DNA of 64,000 nt, taken from contig NZ_BSSE01000002.1 of assembly GCF_030268965.1 (NCBI RefSeq), forward strand, positions 372,001 to 436,000. The letters are read 5' to 3'. Shown piece by piece: positions 30,663-42,900 of this stretch (position 1 is the first letter of the stretch; every line of letters begins with the position of its first letter). Below the pieces are notes generated by a model. It was not told where the DNA came from, ran no database searches, and saw only the letters and a program-made list of their open reading frames with translations. This DNA is from Microtetraspora sp. NBRC 16547 (GTDB lineage Bacteria > Actinomycetota > Actinomycetes > Streptosporangiales > Streptosporangiaceae). A program made the translations under genes and the position numbers.

Positions 30663-30800
30663 GGGCGTCCTCCTTCACCACCGAATCCCATAGAGAGTGA
30701 TGAATCAGGACAGCCGAAGTCAACGCCCGGCCACGGAAGGATCACCGCGATTCAAGCGGCGATTCACGCCACCGGCCTCAGGGCCGGCCGCGAACGGCCG

Positions 30801-31973
30801 TCAAGCCGACACCCCCGGGTGGTATTTGGGGAGGCGGACGCTGACCTTGGTCCCGGCGCCTCTGGCGGTCTCGACCACCAGGCCGTACTCGTCGCCGTAC
30901 ACCTGACGGAGGCGCTCGTCCACATTGGCCAGGCCGACGCCGGTGGCCCGGTCCTCACCGGACAGGATGCGGCGCAGCCGCTCCGGGTCCATGCCGATGC
31001 CGTCGTCCTCGACGCTGATGCCGCACTCCGCTCCCGCGTCCTCGGCGAGGATCGAGATCCGGCCCGCCCCCGGCTTGCTCTCCAGGCCGTGCCGTACGGC
31101 GTTCTCGACCAGCGGCTGGAGGCAGAGGAACGGCACGGCGACGGCGAGCACCTCGGGCGCGATGCGCAGCGTGACCTGGAGCTGGTCGCCGAACCTGGCC
31201 CGTTCGAGGGTGAGGTAGCGCTCGATGGAGTGCAGCTCCTCGGCGAGGGTGGTGAAGTCGCCGTGCCGCCGGAACGAGTAGCGGGTGAAGTCGGCGAACT
31301 CCAGCAGCAGCTCCCTGGCCCGCTCCGGGTCGGTACGGACGAACGACGCGATCGTGGTCAGCGAGTTGTAGATGAAGTGCGGAGAGATCTGCGCGCGCAG
31401 CGCCCGGACCTCGGCCTCCATGAGCATCGTGCGGGAGCGGTCGAGCTCGGCCAGCTCAAGCTGGGAGTCCACCCAGCGGGCCACCTCCTGCGCGGCCCGG
31501 ACCAGCCCCGCCGAGGCGTGGTCGCCGTACGCGGCGAGCGTGCCGACCACCCGGTCCTCGGTGGTGAGGGGCACGACCACGGCGTGCCTGATCGGGCACT
31601 CCAGCAATCCGCAGTCCAGCGCGAGCACCTGGGTCCTGCCGTCCTGCAGCGTCCTGGCGGCGTGCCCGAACGCCTCCTTGGCGTGGTGGTCGCCCACGCC
31701 GTCGTAGACGAGCAGCTCCTCGCCGTTCGTGATGGCGATCGCCGGTGAGCCGAGGAGCTCGCGCAGATGGCGCGACGCCTTGAGCGCGCCGGCCTGGGTG
31801 AGCCCCGCGCGTAGGGGCGGCGCGGCGAGCGACGCCGTGTGCAGGGTCTCGAACGTCGCGCGCTCCGCCGGGCTGCTGCCCAGCTCGCGCCGGCCGCGCA
31901 GCACGCGCCACAGGACGATCGAGGGCACGCCGATGAGCCCCGCCACCACCAGGACCGCCACAACGGGTTCCAC
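30801..31973 (-). CDS. LytS-type sensor histidine kinase
   Basis: A 390-residue kinase. One N-terminal membrane helix (VVAVLVVAGLIGVPSIVLW) is followed by a GAF-like sensor region (about 70-170, with Cys in ALDCGLLECPIRH), then a His_kinase domain with H199 in AQISPHFIYNSL and the ATPase N-box LVENAVRHGLES, G1 EDDGIGM and G2 GVGLANVDERL. It lacks the multi-helix 5TM-LYT sensor of classical LytS/BtsS, so the signal is probably cytoplasmic. It is 138 bases upstream of the regulator gene. Confidence 0.92.
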   Translation of the reverse strand: MEPVVAVLVVAGLIGVPSIVLWRVLRGRRELGSSPAERATFETLHTASLAAPPLRAGLTQAGALKASRHLRELLGSPAIAITNGEELLVYDGVGDHHAKEAFGHAARTLQDGRTQVLALDCGLLECPIRHAVVVPLTTEDRVVGTLAAYGDHASAGLVRAAQEVARWVDSQLELAELDRSRTMLMEAEVRALRAQISPHFIYNSLTTIASFVRTDPERARELLLEFADFTRYSFRRHGDFTTLAEELHSIERYLTLERARFGDQLQVTLRIAPEVLAVAVPFLCLQPLVENAVRHGLESKPGAGRISILAEDAGAECGISVEDDGIGMDPERLRRILSGEDRATGVGLANVDERLRQVYGDEYGLVVETARGAGTKVSVRLPKYHPGVSA

Positions 31974-31983
31974 GCCGTGTCCT

Positions 31984-32409
31984 TTACGTTGTAGATTTCT
32001 CGACTGCGGCCTGGATCCGCTCCGCGTACTCTCTGACCTCGCCGTCGTCGGCGTACTTCACCCGGGGCCAGAAGAAGCCGCGCAGCCCGTCCTTGCGGTT
32101 GCGCGGCACGACGTGGGTGTGCAGGTGGGGGACGCTCTGGCTGACCCGGTTGTTCAGCGCGACGAAGGTCCCTGCCGCGCCGAGCCCCTCCTCGACCGCC
32201 CGGGACACCTCCCGTACGCGCTGGAAGTACGGCCCGACATCCGCGGCGGGCAGGTCGGACAGGGTCTCGACATGGGTCCGCGGCACGACGAGAACATGCC
32301 CCTTGAACACCGGCCGGGCGTCGAGGAAGCCCACGGCCACCTCGTCCGACAGCACCGTCGCGGCCGGTATGCGGCCCGCCACGATGGCGCAGAACACGCA
32401 TTCGTCCAC
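31984..32409 (-). CDS. HIT-family nucleotide hydrolase
   Basis: A 141-residue histidine-triad protein that hydrolyses or transfers nucleotidyl groups. The triad is PHLHTHVVPR with H95/H97/H99, and the N-terminal CVFCAIVAGRIPA carries the usual Cys pair. GTG 32409 is favoured because GAAGGAG lies just upstream and DECVFC is the family N-terminus; an ATG ten codons earlier has no such support. The C-terminal extension (RNRKDGLRGFFWPRVKYADD) is typical of actinobacterial members. It lies 10 bases after the kinase start codon region, on the same strand. Confidence 0.93.
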   Translation of the reverse strand: MDECVFCAIVAGRIPAATVLSDEVAVGFLDARPVFKGHVLVVPRTHVETLSDLPAADVGPYFQRVREVSRAVEEGLGAAGTFVALNNRVSQSVPHLHTHVVPRNRKDGLRGFFWPRVKYADDGEVREYAERIQAAVEKSTT

Positions 32410-32513
32410 GCGCGCTCCTTCTCGTGATCCTCCGGACATCGTCCCACCGGAGGACCACCGCGAAGGCGCCCGGTCGGGACCGGATCAGGACGAACGCCGC
32501 CGGTCTCGCTCCG

Positions 32514-32900
32514 TCAGTCGCCGGTCCCGCTCCACCGACGGCGGTCTCGCCCCATCAGTCGGCGGAGAAGCACGGTCGCCACCAGACACGCGGCGGCGAC
32601 GGCCACGATCTGCGGCACCCTCCCCGCCATCCGGCGGGCTCTCTCCCTGGCACGACGCCCGACGGCCAGCCGGTCCGCGAGGGCGCCCACCGTGCGGGCG
32701 AGCTCCTCTCGGTCGCGCTCGATGGCTGCGCGCACCGACGCCTCCTCGATCTCGGCCGGCCGCCACACGACGACGACGCGCTGCAACGACTCGTTCAGGG
32801 TGTCGCCGGCCTCGCTGACCGGGCCGCCCTCGACGAGCTGGCTGTGCACCCCCACCTCTCCGGCGCTGTGGCGGTTCGTCTCCGGGTCGGTCTCGCTCAT
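32514..32900 (-). CDS. DUF3618 membrane-associated protein
   Basis: A 128-residue protein with the DUF3618 core EEASVRAAIERDREELARTV followed by GALADRLAV and one C-terminal helix (VPQIVAVAAACLVATVLLRR). Its ATG overlaps the stop of the holin-like gene (ATGA), the standard actinobacterial pairing. A role in envelope organisation has been suggested for these pairs but is unproven. The frame is open far upstream, but only this part is conserved. Confidence 0.88.
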   Translation of the reverse strand: MSETDPETNRHSAGEVGVHSQLVEGGPVSEAGDTLNESLQRVVVVWRPAEIEEASVRAAIERDREELARTVGALADRLAVGRRARERARRMAGRVPQIVAVAAACLVATVLLRRLMGRDRRRWSGTGD

Positions 32901-33310
32901 CTGCGCACGCCTTCCCGCAGCACGCCGATGTCGGTCTTGACGCTCTGCATCGTCCGGCGAGCTGTCGGCGCGGCGGCGGTCACCTGCTGCTTGCCCACCA
33001 CACCGAGCACCATGGCCAGGAAGAGCAGGGCGCCGCCGATGATGAGCGCGGCCGCCCAGCCGGGCAGCACGAGCGCCAGCGCCAGGATCGCCGCGGCGGT
33101 GAGCGCTCCCCCGCCGAGCAGCGCGATCGCCCCGGCTCCGCCGACGAGTCCGGCGCCGAGCCCGGCGCGCCTGCCCTTCTCCGTGAGTTCGATCCTGGCG
33201 AGCCGCAGTTCGTCCCGGACGAGCCGGGACACCTGCTCCGACATCTGCCGGACCAGCTCGCCGGTGGACCGGGTTTCCTTGGTTTCCCGGGCTTCCCTGG
33301 TGTGAACCAT
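32897..33310 (-). CDS. Phage-holin-superfamily-III-like membrane protein
   Basis: A 137-residue protein: an amphipathic N-terminus (GELVRQMSEQVSRLVRDELR), then two membrane helices (AGAIALLGGGALTAAAILAL and WAAALIIGGALLFLAMVLGV) and a basic tail. This is the Actinobacteriophage holin/DUF1469 family, chromosomally encoded beside DUF3618 genes and not evidence of a prophage. ATG 33310 follows GGGAGG. Coupled to the DUF3618 gene downstream. Confidence 0.88.
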   Translation of the reverse strand: MVHTREARETKETRSTGELVRQMSEQVSRLVRDELRLARIELTEKGRRAGLGAGLVGGAGAIALLGGGALTAAAILALALVLPGWAAALIIGGALLFLAMVLGVVGKQQVTAAAPTARRTMQSVKTDIGVLREGVRR

Positions 33311-33524
33311 GGCTGCCTCCCATGTCGGGAACGCGTATGCGCCTACCCGGGGGGACGAGTCCAAACCACCGCCCGGACATGCCACGACATCTCACCGAAA
33401 AGGTGAAACTTTCACCCACCGCCCGCGGGCGCCGTACGGGGCCCGCAGGCAAAAGTCCCAGCCTGCGCGGGTGCCTCACCGGCGCGGGGACCGGGGGACG
33501 GCGAGCGGCGTGCAACAGGGCATT
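33311..33524. other. Intergenic stretch before the tandem repeats
   Basis: Upstream of the holin-like gene; no gene recognised. It should hold that gene's promoter. Confidence 0.35.
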
Positions 33525-33692
33525 CCGCTGCACTGCGGTGGGTGGCCGCTCCGGCGCCATGACTGTGAGCCGCTGCACTGCGGTGGGTGGCCGCTCCGGC
33601 GCCATGACTGTGAGCCGCTGCACTGCGGCGGGTGGCCGCTCCGGCGCCATGACTGTGAGCCGCTGCACTGCGGTGGGTGGCTGCTCCGGCGC
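33525..33692. repeat. 45-bp tandem repeats, about 3.7 copies
   Basis: Units begin at 33525, 33570, 33615 and 33660, each with CCGCTGCACTGCGGTGGGTG, then GGCCGCTCCGGCGCCATGAC, then TGTGAG. The first two are identical, the third has one change, and the fourth diverges after about 30 bases and becomes the outer end of the inverted repeat at 33661-33810. No spacer sequences separate the units. Confidence 0.95.
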
Positions 33693-33810
33693 GCCGTGAT
33701 AGTTGCGTCCCGGTGATGCCGCTGTCGCGGCCATCGCGGGCGCGGTGGTTGCTGGCACGGTCCTACGCGCGCCTCCGCAACCACCCACCTCCGCTCCGCT
33801 CCCCGCCGCC
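33661..33810 (+). repeat. 150-bp inverted repeat, left copy
   Basis: It matches the reverse complement of 37067-37216 with 11 differences in 150 aligned positions by eye, including an unbroken run of about 40 identical bases (33722-33761). Similarity stops abruptly at about 33810. Its outer 30 bases are also the last unit of the 45-bp tandem array. Not coding in any recognised way. Confidence 0.9.
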
Positions 33811-33928
33811 CCCAACTCGCCGTCGCCCGATACGCCGTCGTCACGAAGCCCCGCCGCCATGAACGGGCGCGTATCGGCCCGCACGCTGCCGCTTCCGCTG
33901 AAACGGGATGGCGTGTGGAAGATCCGGG

Positions 33929-36767
33929 TCAGAAGGGCGGGATGTCGTCGGCCGGGTCGGGCGGCGGGCAGGACGTGGTCTCGGGTCCGGTCTCTTGCGC
34001 CGGGCTCGGTGCGGGGATGGGTTCTTCCCACCATGCGGGTTCGTAAGTCCAGGTCGGCAGGAACGGGAGTTCGTCGTTGGCGGGATCGGTCATGCTGCCC
34101 GCGCCATACCCGACAGCCGCGAGCCCGCCTTTCCCCGCCCGTTCCCGACCGACCGGGCATGGCCCAGCCTCCGGGGGCGAAGGGCTCCGGCAGGGATTCG
34201 ATGATCGGCGACGGCTGGACCGGATAGCGGTGGCCGGTCCGGCTGATCCACGTCACATGCCCTGGCGCGGTCTGGATGACCCGCCAGCCGTTGTCGCGCA
34301 GGTCATGGTCATGCGCGCACGCGGCAGCCAGGTTGTCCTCGGTGGTGAGACCGCCATGCGCGTACTGGCGGGTGTGATCCAGCTCCGACCGGGTGGCCGG
34401 AGCACGACAGCCGGGATGGGAGCACACCCTGTCCCGGATCTCGATCCGCCGCCGTAGTCCCGCTGTGGGGAACCGCCGCCGCTCATCCCCACCAGCCGCC
34501 CCACAGCCGACCACAGACCCTCGGGCAGCGTCGTTCTCCACAGCACGCCTCCGTACAGGCCCGCCTGCCGCAGCGCCGTCCCCCGCAGCTTCGTCCCCCG
34601 CAGAAGCGCCACCAATAGCACCGTCACCTGCCGAACCATCACCTACCGAACCGTCACCCGCCGAATCGTCACCCGCACTGTGCCCGTGGCCGTCATCGTC
34701 GGTCGAAGAGCTCTGTTCGACGGCCTGGTCGTATTGGCGCATGACGTCAGCGATCACACCGGCCCAGCCACCCTGGGCGTAGATGTCGGCGTACAGCGCC
34801 CGCAGCAGCGACAGCGGGAACTGCAACTCGACGATCCCACGACGGCGGACCGACACAGCCCTCGCGCGGGGATCCCCTTCTGGCTCCTGGTCCGACTCGT
34901 GAGCAGGCTTCGCCCTTGTCCCGCCGACGTCTGCGGAAGCGGTATCAGCCCCGGAACAGAGCGTGGATGAGATGCCAGGCACGCGGCCGGGGCCGGGCAC
35001 CTCACAGGAATCGGACGCGTACGGCGCTGCCGAAACCGGACCAAGCGCCGCCGGGGAACCAAGGCCACCCACGGGGCCGGAGTCCCGTTCGCGACCGGCC
35101 GCCGGGCGGGATGCGGGAGGTGACGGTATTGGAGGGGCCGGGCGGCGGGGCCACCCCGCGGGACGGCGGCGAGTGATCCCGGCGTAGAGGAGGTGCCCGT
35201 CCTCATCACAGATGGCGAACCGCCACTCGCCACCGATCTGTCGTTTGGCAAGCCTGCGGGCCAGATGAGCGTGAATCGGCCCCCACCCGGCAAGCTCTGA
35301 GGGCAGGTCGTCCAAGTACATGAGCGTGGACACCCGAACCCGCAGCTCACCCGCCGCGAACCCCACCGGCTCCACCCCGCCCGCGCTCGACTTCACGCAG
35401 CTGCCCTGAGCACTCCCAGCACCACCGTCACCACGGCTACGGCTACGGCTGTGGCCACCATGGCCGCTGACTCCATCGCCATCGTCCTCGCTACCGTCCC
35501 GGCCGCCGTCGTCCTCGCTACCGTCGCCGTCGCCACTCCCACCATGGCCGCTGTCGCCGTCGCCGTCATCGGGGGCGTCCGCGTGGCTATCGCCACAGCC
35601 GTCATCGCCGTCGTCGCCATCATTGGGGGCATCCGCGCGGCCATCGCCACAACCGCCAGGGCCACCGCCGCCGCCGTCACCGTCATCGGGGTCGCCCCCG
35701 TGGCTATCGCCACAGCCGTCATCGCTGTCACCACGGCCACCGTCGTCGTCGCCGTCGAAGTCGTCGCCGGTGTGGTCGGGGTCGTCCCCGCCGCGGGAGT
35801 CGGGGTCGTCCCAGCTTTGGGGGTCGGGGTCCCCGCCTTGGGGGCCGGGGCCGTCCCAGCCGCAGGGGTCGGGGTCCGCGCCCTGGGGGTCAGGGTCGTC
35901 GAAAGGGGCGTCGGAGAGCTGGTCATCGTAGTCGTCCTCCTCACCGGCCGCCTTGCAGGCGGCGTTGGCGAACAGGACAGCGATGATCGCGTCGTCATCC
36001 AGGCCCGACATGCTCCCCTCCAGCAAGCCGAGAAACACATCCGCCCGCACATGATCAATCGGGGCGTGCAAACCACTCTTCTTCGCCCGCACCGCGATCG
36101 CATCCACCCGCGCGATCGCAGCGGCCGCCTGATCCACCGGCAACTGCTCGCCAGTGATACTCGCCGAACCATCGGCATGCCGCACCCCGATCACCCGCCG
36201 CTGGTGAACAGCCCGCTCATACTTACGGCGCGCCCAGGCCGGATCCGCGGCGATCAACAACTTCTTGATCTTCTCCCGCAGCTCACTCGTCGTCCACTTA
36301 CCCGCCTTAGGCAGCAGATGATCGGCGACAGCGCGGGCGAGCTCGACGGGAACGTCTTCCAGCCAGTCGCAGAACACCACCGCCCGCGCCTTGTCGATCA
36401 AACCCGCCGACAGAGCGTCCCGCACCCGCGGCAGGCGGACTTTCAGGTCGTAGGCGAAACCGTATTCCCGCTCGGCAGCCCGGCGGGTGAGCCCCAACGC
36501 CGACCTAACCTCATCGGGCGAGTTCTTGTCCGGCTCCGCCATTTTCTCCATGCCGGAGACGGAAATCTCATACAGGCCGACCTCGGCCATCACGGTGGCT
36601 TTCCGGGCTTGCACGTGCGCTTCGAGGCGGGCATATGCCTGCATCACGATCACGGCGTCGAAGCCGTCCAGCCTGGCGATATCGATCCCATCCAGCACGG
36701 CGGCCAGCTCCACGCCGGGGGCCATCAACTCCAGGCCGGCGGGTATCGGCTGCCGTTCGATAATCAC
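33929..36767 (-). CDS. 13E12/DUF222 HNH endonuclease, 3' end probably frameshifted
   Basis: About 940 residues of the 13E12 repeat (DUF222) family with a C-terminal HNH nuclease. GTG 36767 starts the DUF222 region (about 20-275). An extraordinary Asp/Gly-rich segment (about 276-455) follows, then a second DUF222 part (RVSTLMYLDDLPSELAGWGP), a Gly/Ala/Asp-rich linker, and the HNH motif: CSHPGCRAPATRSELDHTRQ, then NLAAACAHDHDLRDNGW. After PEPFAPGGWAMP the frame turns to Arg-rich nonsense and runs on to 32514. A neighbouring frame supplies a family-like tail (DPANDELPFLPTWTYEPAWW ending DDIPPF, stop 33929-33931), so a frameshift near 34130-34160 is likely. Function unknown; selfish or repeat-associated roles are suspected. 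Confidence 0.75.
35395..35940 (-). repeat. Asp/Gly low-complexity segment within the HNH gene
   Basis: About 180 codons made almost entirely of Asp, Gly, Pro, Ser and Asn with recurring GDSHADAPDDGDG- and DDPDPQG-like units. The DNA is a degenerate short-period GAC/GGC repeat. It interrupts the DUF222 domain. Confidence 0.85.
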
Positions 36768-37066
36768 ACCCGAACGCTAACAACCCCCACCGACAAAACG
36801 CCTCCCAGACGACCTCGATAAAGGTCCGGAAAGAATTCACCTGGAATCACATTTTCCGTGCGCCAATAACTATTGGACGCAGCATCCTGCGCGTGCGAGG
36901 CAGCGGGGTGCCGGAGACGGTCCGCGCCGGAGTTCGCGACCAGTACACCGCCGACCATGGGCGTGACCGCAGACGGCGGGGTGACCGGATGGCCCTGGCA
37001 GAAATGGCCGCAGGCGAGAACGGCGGTAAAGCCGCCCGATATGGAGGAGCGCGGAGCCGAGGCGAG
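36768..37066. other. Leader region of the HNH gene
   Basis: No gene recognised between the HNH start and the right inverted repeat. It contains the palindrome at 36863-36876 in an A+T-richer patch (36830-36880) that probably holds the promoter. Confidence 0.4.
36863..36876. promoter_or_regulatory. Palindrome CCAATA-AC-TATTGG upstream of the HNH gene
   Basis: Perfect 6-bp arms around two bases, about 96 bases before the HNH start codon. A+T-rich palindromes are rare in this sequence, so an operator or an origin-like element is plausible. Confidence 0.4.
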
Positions 37067-37216
37067 GGCGTCGGGGAACGGAGCGGAGGTGGGTGGTTGT
37101 GGAGGCGCGCGTGAGACCGTGCCAGCAACCACCGCGCCCGCGATGGCCGCGACAGCGGCATCACCAGGATGCAACTATCACGGCGCGCCGGAACAACCAC
37201 CCGCCGCAGCGCAGCG
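37067..37216 (-). repeat. 150-bp inverted repeat, right copy
   Basis: The reverse complement of 33661-33810 (about 93% identical by eye). It carries only one equivalent of the 45-bp unit at its outer end, so the tandem expansion is on the left side only. With the left copy it brackets the HNH gene symmetrically. Confidence 0.9.
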
Positions 37217-39307: not shown

Positions 39308-39909
39308 GCTTCCGTGCTACCCCGGCTTCGGCAACCCAGCCCACTCAGCCGACTTGCTCGGCTCCGCAGTCCGAGCGGCAGCCACAGACCAACACGAGAT
39401 CGCCCCGCCGGTGTGTTCCATCACCGGCGGGGCCGCTTCCGCTATCCCGAGAGCGAATCAGGATGAGCCGGCGGAAGCGAGTCTCTCGTCTAGAGACGGC
39501 TTGAAGGAGCTCGACACGAGACCGAAGGCGACGAGAGCCGCATCCTCACCTCCCTCCCGGCCGGTGCGCGTGATCTACGCCAGGCACGACCCGGCCGGGC
39601 ACGCGCAGCACGAACCGTGCGCTGCGGGGGCTGTCTTCGATGGTGAGGGTCCCCGCGGAGAATGTCGCTCGTGGGCGGCATCGGCGGCATGGCCATGATC
39701 GGGCTCGGAGTGACCGTTGCCGTTACCGGCCGCGCCGACTAGGCCCAGCGCAGCGGTCCACGTGTCCTCGTCTGGCCAGGTCAGACGTTCACCGCAGCGC
39801 CATCGGCCACTGGCGTCCCGGTGAGTACACGGGATCGCGGGCTGATCAAAGCAGTGCGCGGCCGCTGCTACTGTGTCCCGGCACAGGAGGCGAGAAGGGG
39901 GTACGGCAC
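39308..39909. other. 602-bp intergenic region
   Basis: Between the divergent phosphatase and SNF2 genes. It contains the strong hairpin at 39402-39433. A 26-codon frame at 39662-39742 was considered and not called. Nothing else recognised. Confidence 0.4.
39402..39433. terminator. Perfect 12-bp stem-loop
   Basis: GCCCCGCCGGTG / CACCGGCGGGGC with an 8-base loop. It is not directly behind any called gene, so it may be a relic of one, or an RNA-processing or insulator structure. Confidence 0.45.
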
Positions 39910-42900
39910 GTGCTCGTGATCCACGGTGCCTGGGCCGGGGACCGCCTCAGGCTCTGGGCAGAGGACACCTCCGACGGCACGGCGACCGGCGAGAAAGCCG
40001 GCATTTCACGGGCGAAGGTCCGCCCGCATCCGTACGCGGCTCCGGCCGCCGCGATCGCCCACGACCTCTCGTTCTGGGGAGACGTCGCCGAGACGTCAGC
40101 AGGCAAGGCCGAGGCGGGGGAACTCGTCCTGCTCCTGCCCAGTTCGGGGCGGAGTCCCCTGCCCTCGCCCGAAGCGGGCCTCGACATCACCGCGCGACAG
40201 CCGAGGATCAGTGCGTGGCGGGTTCCCGCGCTGGCGGTCGCGCCCGACGCGGCTCTGGATCTGCTCACCTGCGTCGACGAGATGGCCCACCTCCCTGCGG
40301 AAGCGTACGAACCGGGCGAGTTTCCGGACGGCGACCCCCGGGCGGCGGTTCCGGGACCGTCGCTGCGCTATCTCGCCGTGGTCGCCGCCTACGCGCGTGA
40401 CCTGGTCCGCCGTGGGCGGGTGCTGCCCCAGCTCGTCGCCGAGGACGGCGGCTACGCGGCCCGATGGCGTCCGGTGCTGACCGGCTCCTATGCCGCCCGG
40501 TTCCGGGAGCTCGCCGCCGCGATGCCGCCGGTCTGCCGGGCCGTGGAAGAGGAGCGGCGGTCGACGCCCGTGCTGCTCGACACCCTCGCGTCCCTGGCCG
40601 ACGCCGCCGTACGGCAGGCGCTCCCCGAGCGGCTGCTCGGCGGGCACCGGCCGGGGTTGCGCAGTCCTCTCGCCGACCGCTGGACGGTGGCCCTCACGGG
40701 AGAGGCGGCGCTTCCGGGCGTGAAGCAGGCCGAAGCCGAGAAGCTGGCCCAGCCGCTCCGGGAATGGTTCGACTCGGCGCACCAGTTCGACGGTCCCGTC
40801 CGGGTGTGCTTCCGGCTGACTGAACCGCCCCAACCCGAACCGTCCGTCTCGGAAGCCGAGGAGCCCGAGGAGCCCGGTGAGCCCGGTGAGCCCGGCGAGC
40901 CCGGTGAGCCCGGTGAGCCCGGTGAGCCCGGTGAGAACAGGCCGGAACGCGACGGGCGAGATTCGCCGGAAAGCGATACCTGGCTGGTGGAGTTGGCCCT
41001 GCAGGCCGCCGACGATCCGAGCCTCTACCTGCCGGCGGAGCTGATCTGGGCGGGCGAGAGCGCGCCGGGCTTCCCGAACCGGCCGGACGAGACGCTGCTC
41101 GCTGGTCTCGGGCGGGCCGTGCGCCTGTATCCGAAGGTCGAGGAGGCGTTGCGCGAGGCCCGGCCCTCGGCGCTGGCCCTCGACACGGCGGGAGCGTTCG
41201 GCTTCCTCCGCCATGCCGCGCCGTTGCTGCAGGCCGCCGGGTTCGGGGTGCAGCTGCCCGCGTGGGCGGGCCGTACCCGCCTGGGGCTAAAGATCACCGC
41301 CCGCTCACAGCAGAAGGCCGGACCGGGCGCGGCGGCCGACCAGGGGTTCGGTCTGCACCAGCTCGTGGATTTCCGCGCGGACCTGGCGATCGGCGACGAG
41401 ACGATCAGCGAGGAGGAGCTGGCCGAGCTGGCCAGGCTCAAGGTGCCGCTGGTGCGGGTCAGGGGACGCTGGGTCGAGCTGGACGACCGGCAGCTCGGGG
41501 CCGCGCTGAAGGCGGTCGCGCGGCGCCGGGCGGGCGAGATGACGGTCGGCGAGCTGATCCAGGAGGTCGTGCACGGCGGCGACGAGGAGCTGCCACTGGT
41601 CGAGGTGGACGCCGACGGCCTGCTCGGGGATCTGCTCTCCGGCGAGGCCGACCGCCGGCTGGAGCCGGTCGCGACTCCGGAGGGCTTCCAGGGCGTGCTG
41701 CGGCCGTACCAGGAGCGCGGCCTGTCCTGGCTGGCCTTCATGTCCCGGATCGGGCTCGGCGGAATCCTCGCAGACGATATGGGACTCGGTAAGTGCCTGA
41801 TGCCCGATTCGCCGGTCTTTGTCAACGGCGTCCTGGCCACCGCCGCCGACATTTGGCGTGACCACGCCGGAGACACCGTCGCCGGTGACGGCGGAGAATG
41901 GGCGACCCCGACCTCACCGCTCTCCACCAGCTCCATCGACGCCGAAGGCCGGATCGTGGAGGCCCCTTTCACCCGCCTGTTCCGGCAGCACGTGCGGGAA
42001 CGGCTCCGGCGGGTCCGGCTGGACGACGGCAACGAGGTCACGATCACCGCTCGGCACCGTCTGCTCGGCGTCAACGGCTGGACCCGGGAGATCCGGCCCG
42101 GAGATCGGATCTGCGTCCCCCGCTTCCTCCGCTGGCAGGGATCGCCGGTCGATCCCGACCTAACCGTCCTTCTGGCCTGGCAGATCAGTGAGGGAAACGA
42201 AAGCCGCAGGGGGGACCTGCGCATCTCTCAGAAGGACCGCTCCGTCCTGGACATGCTCAGCGAGCGGATCGCCCGGGTCGGTTCCCGCTTCGGCCTGGTC
42301 ATGGACCACCCCACCGTACGGGCTTCCCGGAACATCCACGAGCTGCGCATGCGCAGCATCGACTACGCGGCCTTCCTCGCCTGCCACGGTTACGAATGGG
42401 GCCACCTCTCGGCCGGGAAAAGGATCCCGGACTTCATCATGGCCGCCGATGACGAGACCCTCCGGCTCTTCCTCAGAGAGTTCTTCACCGCCGAAGGCAG
42501 TGTCCTCCCGGGCGTGCGCATGATCGAGATAGCGTCCGCCTCGCGCTGGCTCATGTGCCAGCTGTCCGCCATGCTGCGCCGTTTCGGCATCTGGCTGCGT
42601 ACGACGGAGAAGATGACGGCGGCCACCAACGGCTCCGGAATCAGCCGGCCTTACCAGAGCGGTTTGATCGGCGGTGCCGGGCTCCGTCTGTTCCACGAGC
42701 TCATCGGCTTCTCCGACCCGGCGAAACAGGCCAAGCTGGAGGCTCTCTGCACGAAGTCCACCGATTCCAATGTCGAGGGTGTACCCGGCAGTGATCTGCC
42801 GGCGTTCGCGCGCGCCTCCACCGGCCTTCCGATGCGCCATTTCGGCATCGGCACCGCATATTTCACCGGCACCCAGGAGCTTTCCCGGGAAACGGCCGCC

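Follow-up and report, generated by a model that had tools for sequence, protein, structure and literature searches.

A DUF222/HNH gene between convergent palindromic arms in Microtetraspora sp. NBRC 16547: a candidate site of an accessory-gene cassette class in the Streptosporangiaceae

The window, i.e., the whole stretch of 64,000 nucleotides analyzed from Microtetraspora sp. NBRC 16547, harbors a 13E12-type DUF222/HNH gene on the minus strand (33929–36767, start at 36767), bracketed by two inverted copies of one repeat. The first-pass annotation had counted, by eye, 11 differences in 150 positions between 33661–33810 and the reverse complement of 37067–37216, and the alignment gave the same number. 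According to repeat finding in the window, the two arms extend to 33661–33826 and 37051–37216 (166 nt, 90% complementary); the arm pair has a blastn E-value of 3.5e-52 within the window, and this inverted repeat is therefore not due to chance. The similarity, described as stopping sharply on the inner side, instead tapers over about 16 nt, and the gene is indeed the only one between the arms. The left arm (33661–33826, plus strand) lies 3′ of the gene and the right arm (37051–37216, minus strand) lies 5′ of it, in convergent orientation. Each arm is palindromic in itself (33672–33694 pairs with 33767–33789), with the palindromic core at 33673–33795 on the left and at 37082–37204 on the right; the covariance model R1 (see below), which was trained on these copies among others, gives them 137.9 and 141.7 bits, respectively.

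Outside the left arm, three 45-bp tandem units (33525–33659, plus strand; repeat family D1) each carry, from their second base onward, a near copy of the 32 nt that open the arm; such units, made of the arm start and a spacer, also lie outside an arm on contig 37 (L067, 7683–7848). The locus is enclosed by a left flank (30784–33349) present in three other Microtetraspora genomes and a right flank (39894–41793) with an identity of 69–77% to M. fusca and M. niveoalba and of 85% to M. glauca; 2.7 kb of other sequence separates the right arm from the right flank.

The cargo gene retains an intact C-terminal HNH domain (34296–34409, minus strand; residues 787–824 of the frame; PF01844, 22.8 bits against a cut-off of 21.4). 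DUF222 reached 40.9 bits in the genome profile search (cut-off 24.4) and, at E 0.001, was absent from the hmmscan output for the complete frame of 1417 aa. The usual C-terminus (...DIPPF, stop at 33929) is in a different frame: the reading frame leaves that of the sister copies from about 34130 and continues open to 32514, so that the window copy is either frameshifted in its tail or misassembled there. In the low-complexity stretch of the gene, a guanidine-II hit fell below the threshold (25.2 bits against a cut-off of 32) and was discarded.

Searching the 7.8-Mb assembly with the arm DNA retrieved 48 matches at E up to 10, 20 of which are long (at least 137 nt aligned). The R1 model was made from 19 of these 20 copies, and on the same genome it recovered all 20 together with nine weak opposite-strand echoes. 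The DUF222 profile retrieved 26 matches, six of them of the window-gene type (N-terminal part 99–100% identical); once gene ends at contig borders are counted, there are at least seven copies of the window-type DUF222/HNH gene (four whose two ends share a contig, plus three 5′ halves and three 3′ halves). Other HNH genes with the same ends, for which the first-pass annotation had proposed to look, are thus present, and the orientation of their arms is always identical. An arm accompanies six of the seven visible 5′ ends, one arm being about 3.3 kb off, behind an insert, and six of the seven visible 3′ ends, where one arm is a 43-nt remnant. Between the arm and one of these DUF222 copies lies an OrfB_IS605/TnpB-like gene (L060, 7294–8454), which suggests that this cassette was invaded by another element. 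Apart from four copies downstream of 5S rRNA at contig ends (see below), the remaining repeat copies of the genome are solitary, with one lying 1.8 kb away from a DUF222 gene that belongs to a different type; close convergent pairs take in only 4 of the 20 copies, in a fragmented assembly where the rest stand single or at contig ends.

The search in the genome and its relatives, also proposed at first pass, found, in addition to the 20 copies described above, the repeat in 32 of the 200 Streptosporangiaceae genomes sampled, which belong to 10 of the 68 genera in that sample. Among 297 genomes drawn from the order, 41 harbor R1, all of them Streptosporangiaceae; the out-of-family share of the 297 is not given, and this figure does not imply absence elsewhere. 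A scan of named genomes with an exact pattern yielded 49 stretches, all from Microtetraspora, Microbispora, or Planotetraspora. The orientation of neighboring copies was analyzed in this genome and in 11 relatives picked for carrying the repeat (153 copies): 34 of the 36 neighbors lying 0.4–12 kb apart are convergent (one is on the same strand and one is divergent), and all 10 neighbors less than 400 bp apart are in tandem on one strand. Close convergent pairs comprise 68 of the 153 copies.

The arms of 37 convergent pairs (that of the window and 36 from relatives) measure 136–571 bp and share an identity of 83–100% in 36 pairs and of 75% in one tandem case. Forty cargo proteins were chosen from 15 cassettes of relatives and three of this genome, and 37 of them have a Pfam match at E 1e-5. 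The enzymes include short-chain and zinc dehydrogenases, FAD and luciferase-like monooxygenases, hydrolases, a subtilase, an alpha-1,3-glucanase, an acetyltransferase, and others; the other cargo includes an MFS transporter and regulators of the TetR, PadR, MerR, GntR, and LacI types. Neither a recombinase nor a Y1 (RAYT) transposase was found among the 40, and a transposase-type domain occurs in one of them, the OrfB_IS605/TnpB-like protein already mentioned. An ORF in L130 that looked like a transposase on inspection matches no Pfam family at E 1e-5, and this candidate was rejected. In L124/L173 the cargo is modular, with an internal arm.

The comparison of the flanks revealed 10 sites having both flanks in common between at least two species, and at nine of them the cargo is wholly or partly different. 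At the tenth, four Microbispora-type genomes (L119–L122) keep one 6-kb cassette, 91–95% identical in its cargo, which encodes LacI-type regulators and an alpha-1,3-glucanase-like protein, a constancy which counts against an exchange of cargo. The DUF222 cassettes of the genome under study occupy sites with other cargo in sister species. One is site A, represented here by contigs 25 and 39 with a putative junction through the DUF222 gene, where M. fusca harbors a subtilase and a sigma factor and M. niveoalba a TetR gene; the other is on contig 10, where the DUF222 copy has one arm only and M. niveoalba has four other genes. The arms at site A share an identity of 0.77–0.80 with those of the sister species versus 0.93–0.98 with those of the window, which argues that the exchange there did not proceed via crossover inside shared arms. 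As for the window site, its flanks are 7.4 kb apart in M. fusca and 7.1 kb apart in M. niveoalba, with no R1 match between them. In M. glauca the right arm is present and no left arm lies within 2.4 kb of the left flank; a stretch of 177 nt at its contig start aligns at 78% with the region where the window gene begins.

Site C, which lies between two converging genes, has its left flank in all 16 genomes compared from the genus of G123. It is empty in eight of them, where the two flanks are 23–207 bp apart, and filled by arm-bounded cassettes in four; the other four (L257–L260) carry a 1.6–5.8 kb insert in which neither R1 (at E 0.1) nor an inverted repeat of 100 bp was detected, so that the site also accepts DNA without arms. 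Between G005 and G169 (left flank 98% identical), site C harbors the same cargo in opposite orientation with collinear flanks, and a second cargo inversion, again between collinear flanks, distinguishes G123 from G157 at site E. Target-site duplications, for which the first-pass annotation had advised looking, were not detected in 37 cassettes, whose longest shared word averaged 4.16 nt against 4.44 in 1332 mismatched control pairs, the outer edges being taken from alignments and not precise. At site E of G157 (C1, 1405745–1466294; L284, L293–L295), one arm pair spans about 60 kb, with part of the known cargo inverted at the left end.

The mean identity of the arms is 0.962 within a cassette versus 0.907 for orthologous arms (16 comparisons, overlapping sets), and in each of the seven genomes compared, arms of one cassette are on average more alike, by 0.01–0.10, than arms of different cassettes. 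By comparison, the arms of one cassette thus appear homogenized on average. Exceptions occur (L119/L121, L162/L166), and within one genome some arms from separate cassettes match each other as closely as the two arms of a single cassette do.

The core structure was evaluated on a MAFFT alignment of 28 copies hand-picked for diversity, with a hand-drawn outer stem of 22 pairs. This stem is paired in 93.0% of 610 cells, versus at most 46% when the partner is slid by 1–3 columns, and its changes are 58 two-sided and none one-sided. None of 500 shuffles reached the covariation score, counts that are not probabilities because related copies are not independent. That one-sided (G-U type) changes are lacking favors a DNA hairpin or cruciform, pointing to a probable DNA rather than RNA constraint on the outer stem. 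The arms matched nothing in Rfam up to E 5, and the window gave no match at the gathering score; on these two grounds an RNA reading of the arm was set aside, whereas the inner pairs of the RNAalifold model, which do show one-sided changes, speak against dismissing it.

The first-pass annotation had seen in the locus the layout of a mobile or self-maintaining element, or of an inversion cassette. The mobile and inversion aspect is supported by the same ends on at least seven copies and by the inversions between species; the view of nuclease and repeats as one self-maintaining unit is not supported. As the annotation itself had specified, repeats at many loci with no HNH gene would speak against such a unit, and this is what two same-genus genomes exhibit: they harbor 13 and 14 repeat copies and no match to the window DUF222 type at E 1e-10. 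Conversely, five genomes of one genus possess the gene (67–71% identity) with no repeat match, and a DUF222 relative on contig 10 of M. malaysiensis (L255), 89% identical N-terminally, has no R1 match in the 13 kb around it; among the first-fetched cassettes of relatives, 0 of 20 harbor the window DUF222 type at E 0.001. Genomes with the gene or the repeat, and not both, argue against a tight unit. Judged by these sequence comparisons, the DUF222/HNH gene is one of many cargoes, and the repeats do not depend on it.

Among known systems, REP13E12 (13E12) of Mycobacterium tuberculosis is most closely related to the window cargo. In the excerpts of the literature considered here, these genes resemble those described above in being DUF222/HNH genes that exist in several copies and readily exchange sequence with one another, with frequent gene conversion and no defined biological function (PMC13061034), and they are counted among repetitive elements (PMC10589994). 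Unlike the cassettes, the excerpt makes no mention of long palindromic arms or of a swap with unrelated cargo (PMC13061034), the gene being one cargo here.

At the level of sequence, comparison between genomes shows that the arms form convergent pairs with diverse cargo, that a given site can hold other cargo or stand empty from genome to genome, that cargo is inverted in two cases, and that the arms are homogenized on average. The explanation that we propose, and to which we give an even chance, is that accessory-gene cassettes are exchanged and flipped by recombination between the arms. The window feature would then be one occupied site of a cassette class found in several genera of the family, a cassette consisting of varied genes between two convergent arms, each with a palindromic core of about 120 nt, placed at fixed sites, in many cases 3′ of the genes on either side. 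Recombination between near-identical arms, which we infer to be the substrate, would flip the cargo and homogenize the arms, and a cassette, with or without its arms, could be replaced by another. The palindromes would probably extrude hairpins, which would be cut or stalled and then repaired from another copy, and the DUF222/HNH cargo might have spread to at least seven places in this genome, possibly via its own nuclease. Weighing against this explanation are the limited share of copies in close convergent pairs (68 of 153, and 4 of 20 in this genome), the armless inserts at site C, the differing arms at site A, the comparisons that lack homogenization, and the constant cargo at the tenth site.

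In a broader form, which we put forward tentatively as something short of probable, this might represent a new class of cassette system, seen so far in one actinomycete family only, in which fixed chromosomal docking sites are framed by convergent palindromic arms and unrelated accessory genes are swapped and flipped, without a mobility gene of their own, via hairpin extrusion or a dedicated recombinase. A literature search, with subscription titles mostly outside it, retrieved no account of such a class. If true, large soil actinomycetes would swap single enzymes together with their regulators at constant chromosome addresses with no evident phage, plasmid, or transposase; the arm would be a DNA motif for cataloguing such sites, and the long-known, unexplained 13E12 genes would be placed, as cassette cargo, in one concrete context.

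Alternatively, the arms might be the sites of a site-specific recombinase encoded elsewhere, in a pdif (Xer)- or integron-like manner, although with convergent sites. The conserved structured core, the nearly constant convergence of close pairs, the cargo inversion, and the lack of any recombinase among the cargo proteins tested are all consistent with this. It nevertheless seems to us rather unlikely, since arms of 136–571 bp suffice for ordinary homologous recombination and an integron integrase (TIGR02249) is above the cut-off in none of 10 genomes, weaker matches occurring in all 10 and in 14 out of 14 controls. Integron cassettes comprise varied accessory cargo beside a structured palindromic site (attC), and these sites share one orientation and work with an integrase, whereas the cassette arms stand in convergent pairs (34 of the 36 neighbors 0.4–12 kb apart). 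The Xer sites of pdif modules are short and often inverted. Like the cassettes, pdif modules of Acinetobacter (XerC/D) hold accessory genes between paired recombination sites (PMC12907356, PMC10132070); unlike them, they are mostly on plasmids and belong to another phylum, the long arms with a palindromic core being chromosomal. By analogy, pdif modules and integrons would be the closest systems in layout.

We consider it improbable that the repeats belong to a transposon family with long terminal inverted repeats, having DUF222/HNH or another protein as transposase and the cargo cassettes as non-autonomous members. Such a family would be in agreement with at least seven DUF222 copies with the same ends in one genome, with the single repeat copies, with both empty and filled sites, and with the arrival of the arms together with the cargo at site A; terminal inverted repeats, a feature of TIR transposons and MITEs, are present in all 37 pairs considered, a set selected for convergence. 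However, the gene and the repeat occur apart, both in the same-genus genomes with 13 and 14 repeats (no gene at E 1e-10) and in the five gene-bearing genomes of one genus (67–71% identity, no repeat match), the same sites are used by several species, and no target duplication was detected with outer edges that are imprecise. REP/RAYT elements and MITEs likewise have palindromic repeats, scattered as single copies or flanking a gene as inverted pairs; they differ from the cassettes, which have varied cargo differing between species at fixed sites and no target duplication.

An even less probable possibility is that the arms are terminators or insulators 3′ of genes, irrelevant to mobility, and that the sites mark hotspots between converging genes where insertions are tolerated. 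The outer genes point to the arm in 52 of 73 cases (rough ORF calls at sites that are not independent), site C accepts armless inserts, and some repeat copies follow 5S rRNA at contig ends. On the other hand, the outer stem lacks the one-sided changes that an RNA hairpin should tolerate (the inner RNAalifold pairs do have them), the arms are homogenized on average within a cassette, and the cargo is inverted between arms. A plasmid or phage origin was discarded, the arm of the window having no match at E 0.001 in 72,556 plasmid and 50,697 phage records and its exact core pattern none in IMG/VR.

The copies at contig ends are four in number (L068, L069, L071, and L072, on contigs 4, 13, 50, and 19, respectively) and lie about 0.2–0.4 kb downstream of 5S rRNA, the Rfam threshold for which is reached at three of the four loci. 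They had been considered as a second element, an idea dropped in view of the 5S rRNA that they follow. On contig 50, a second, convergent repeat copy lies about 540 bp beyond the copy downstream of 5S rRNA.
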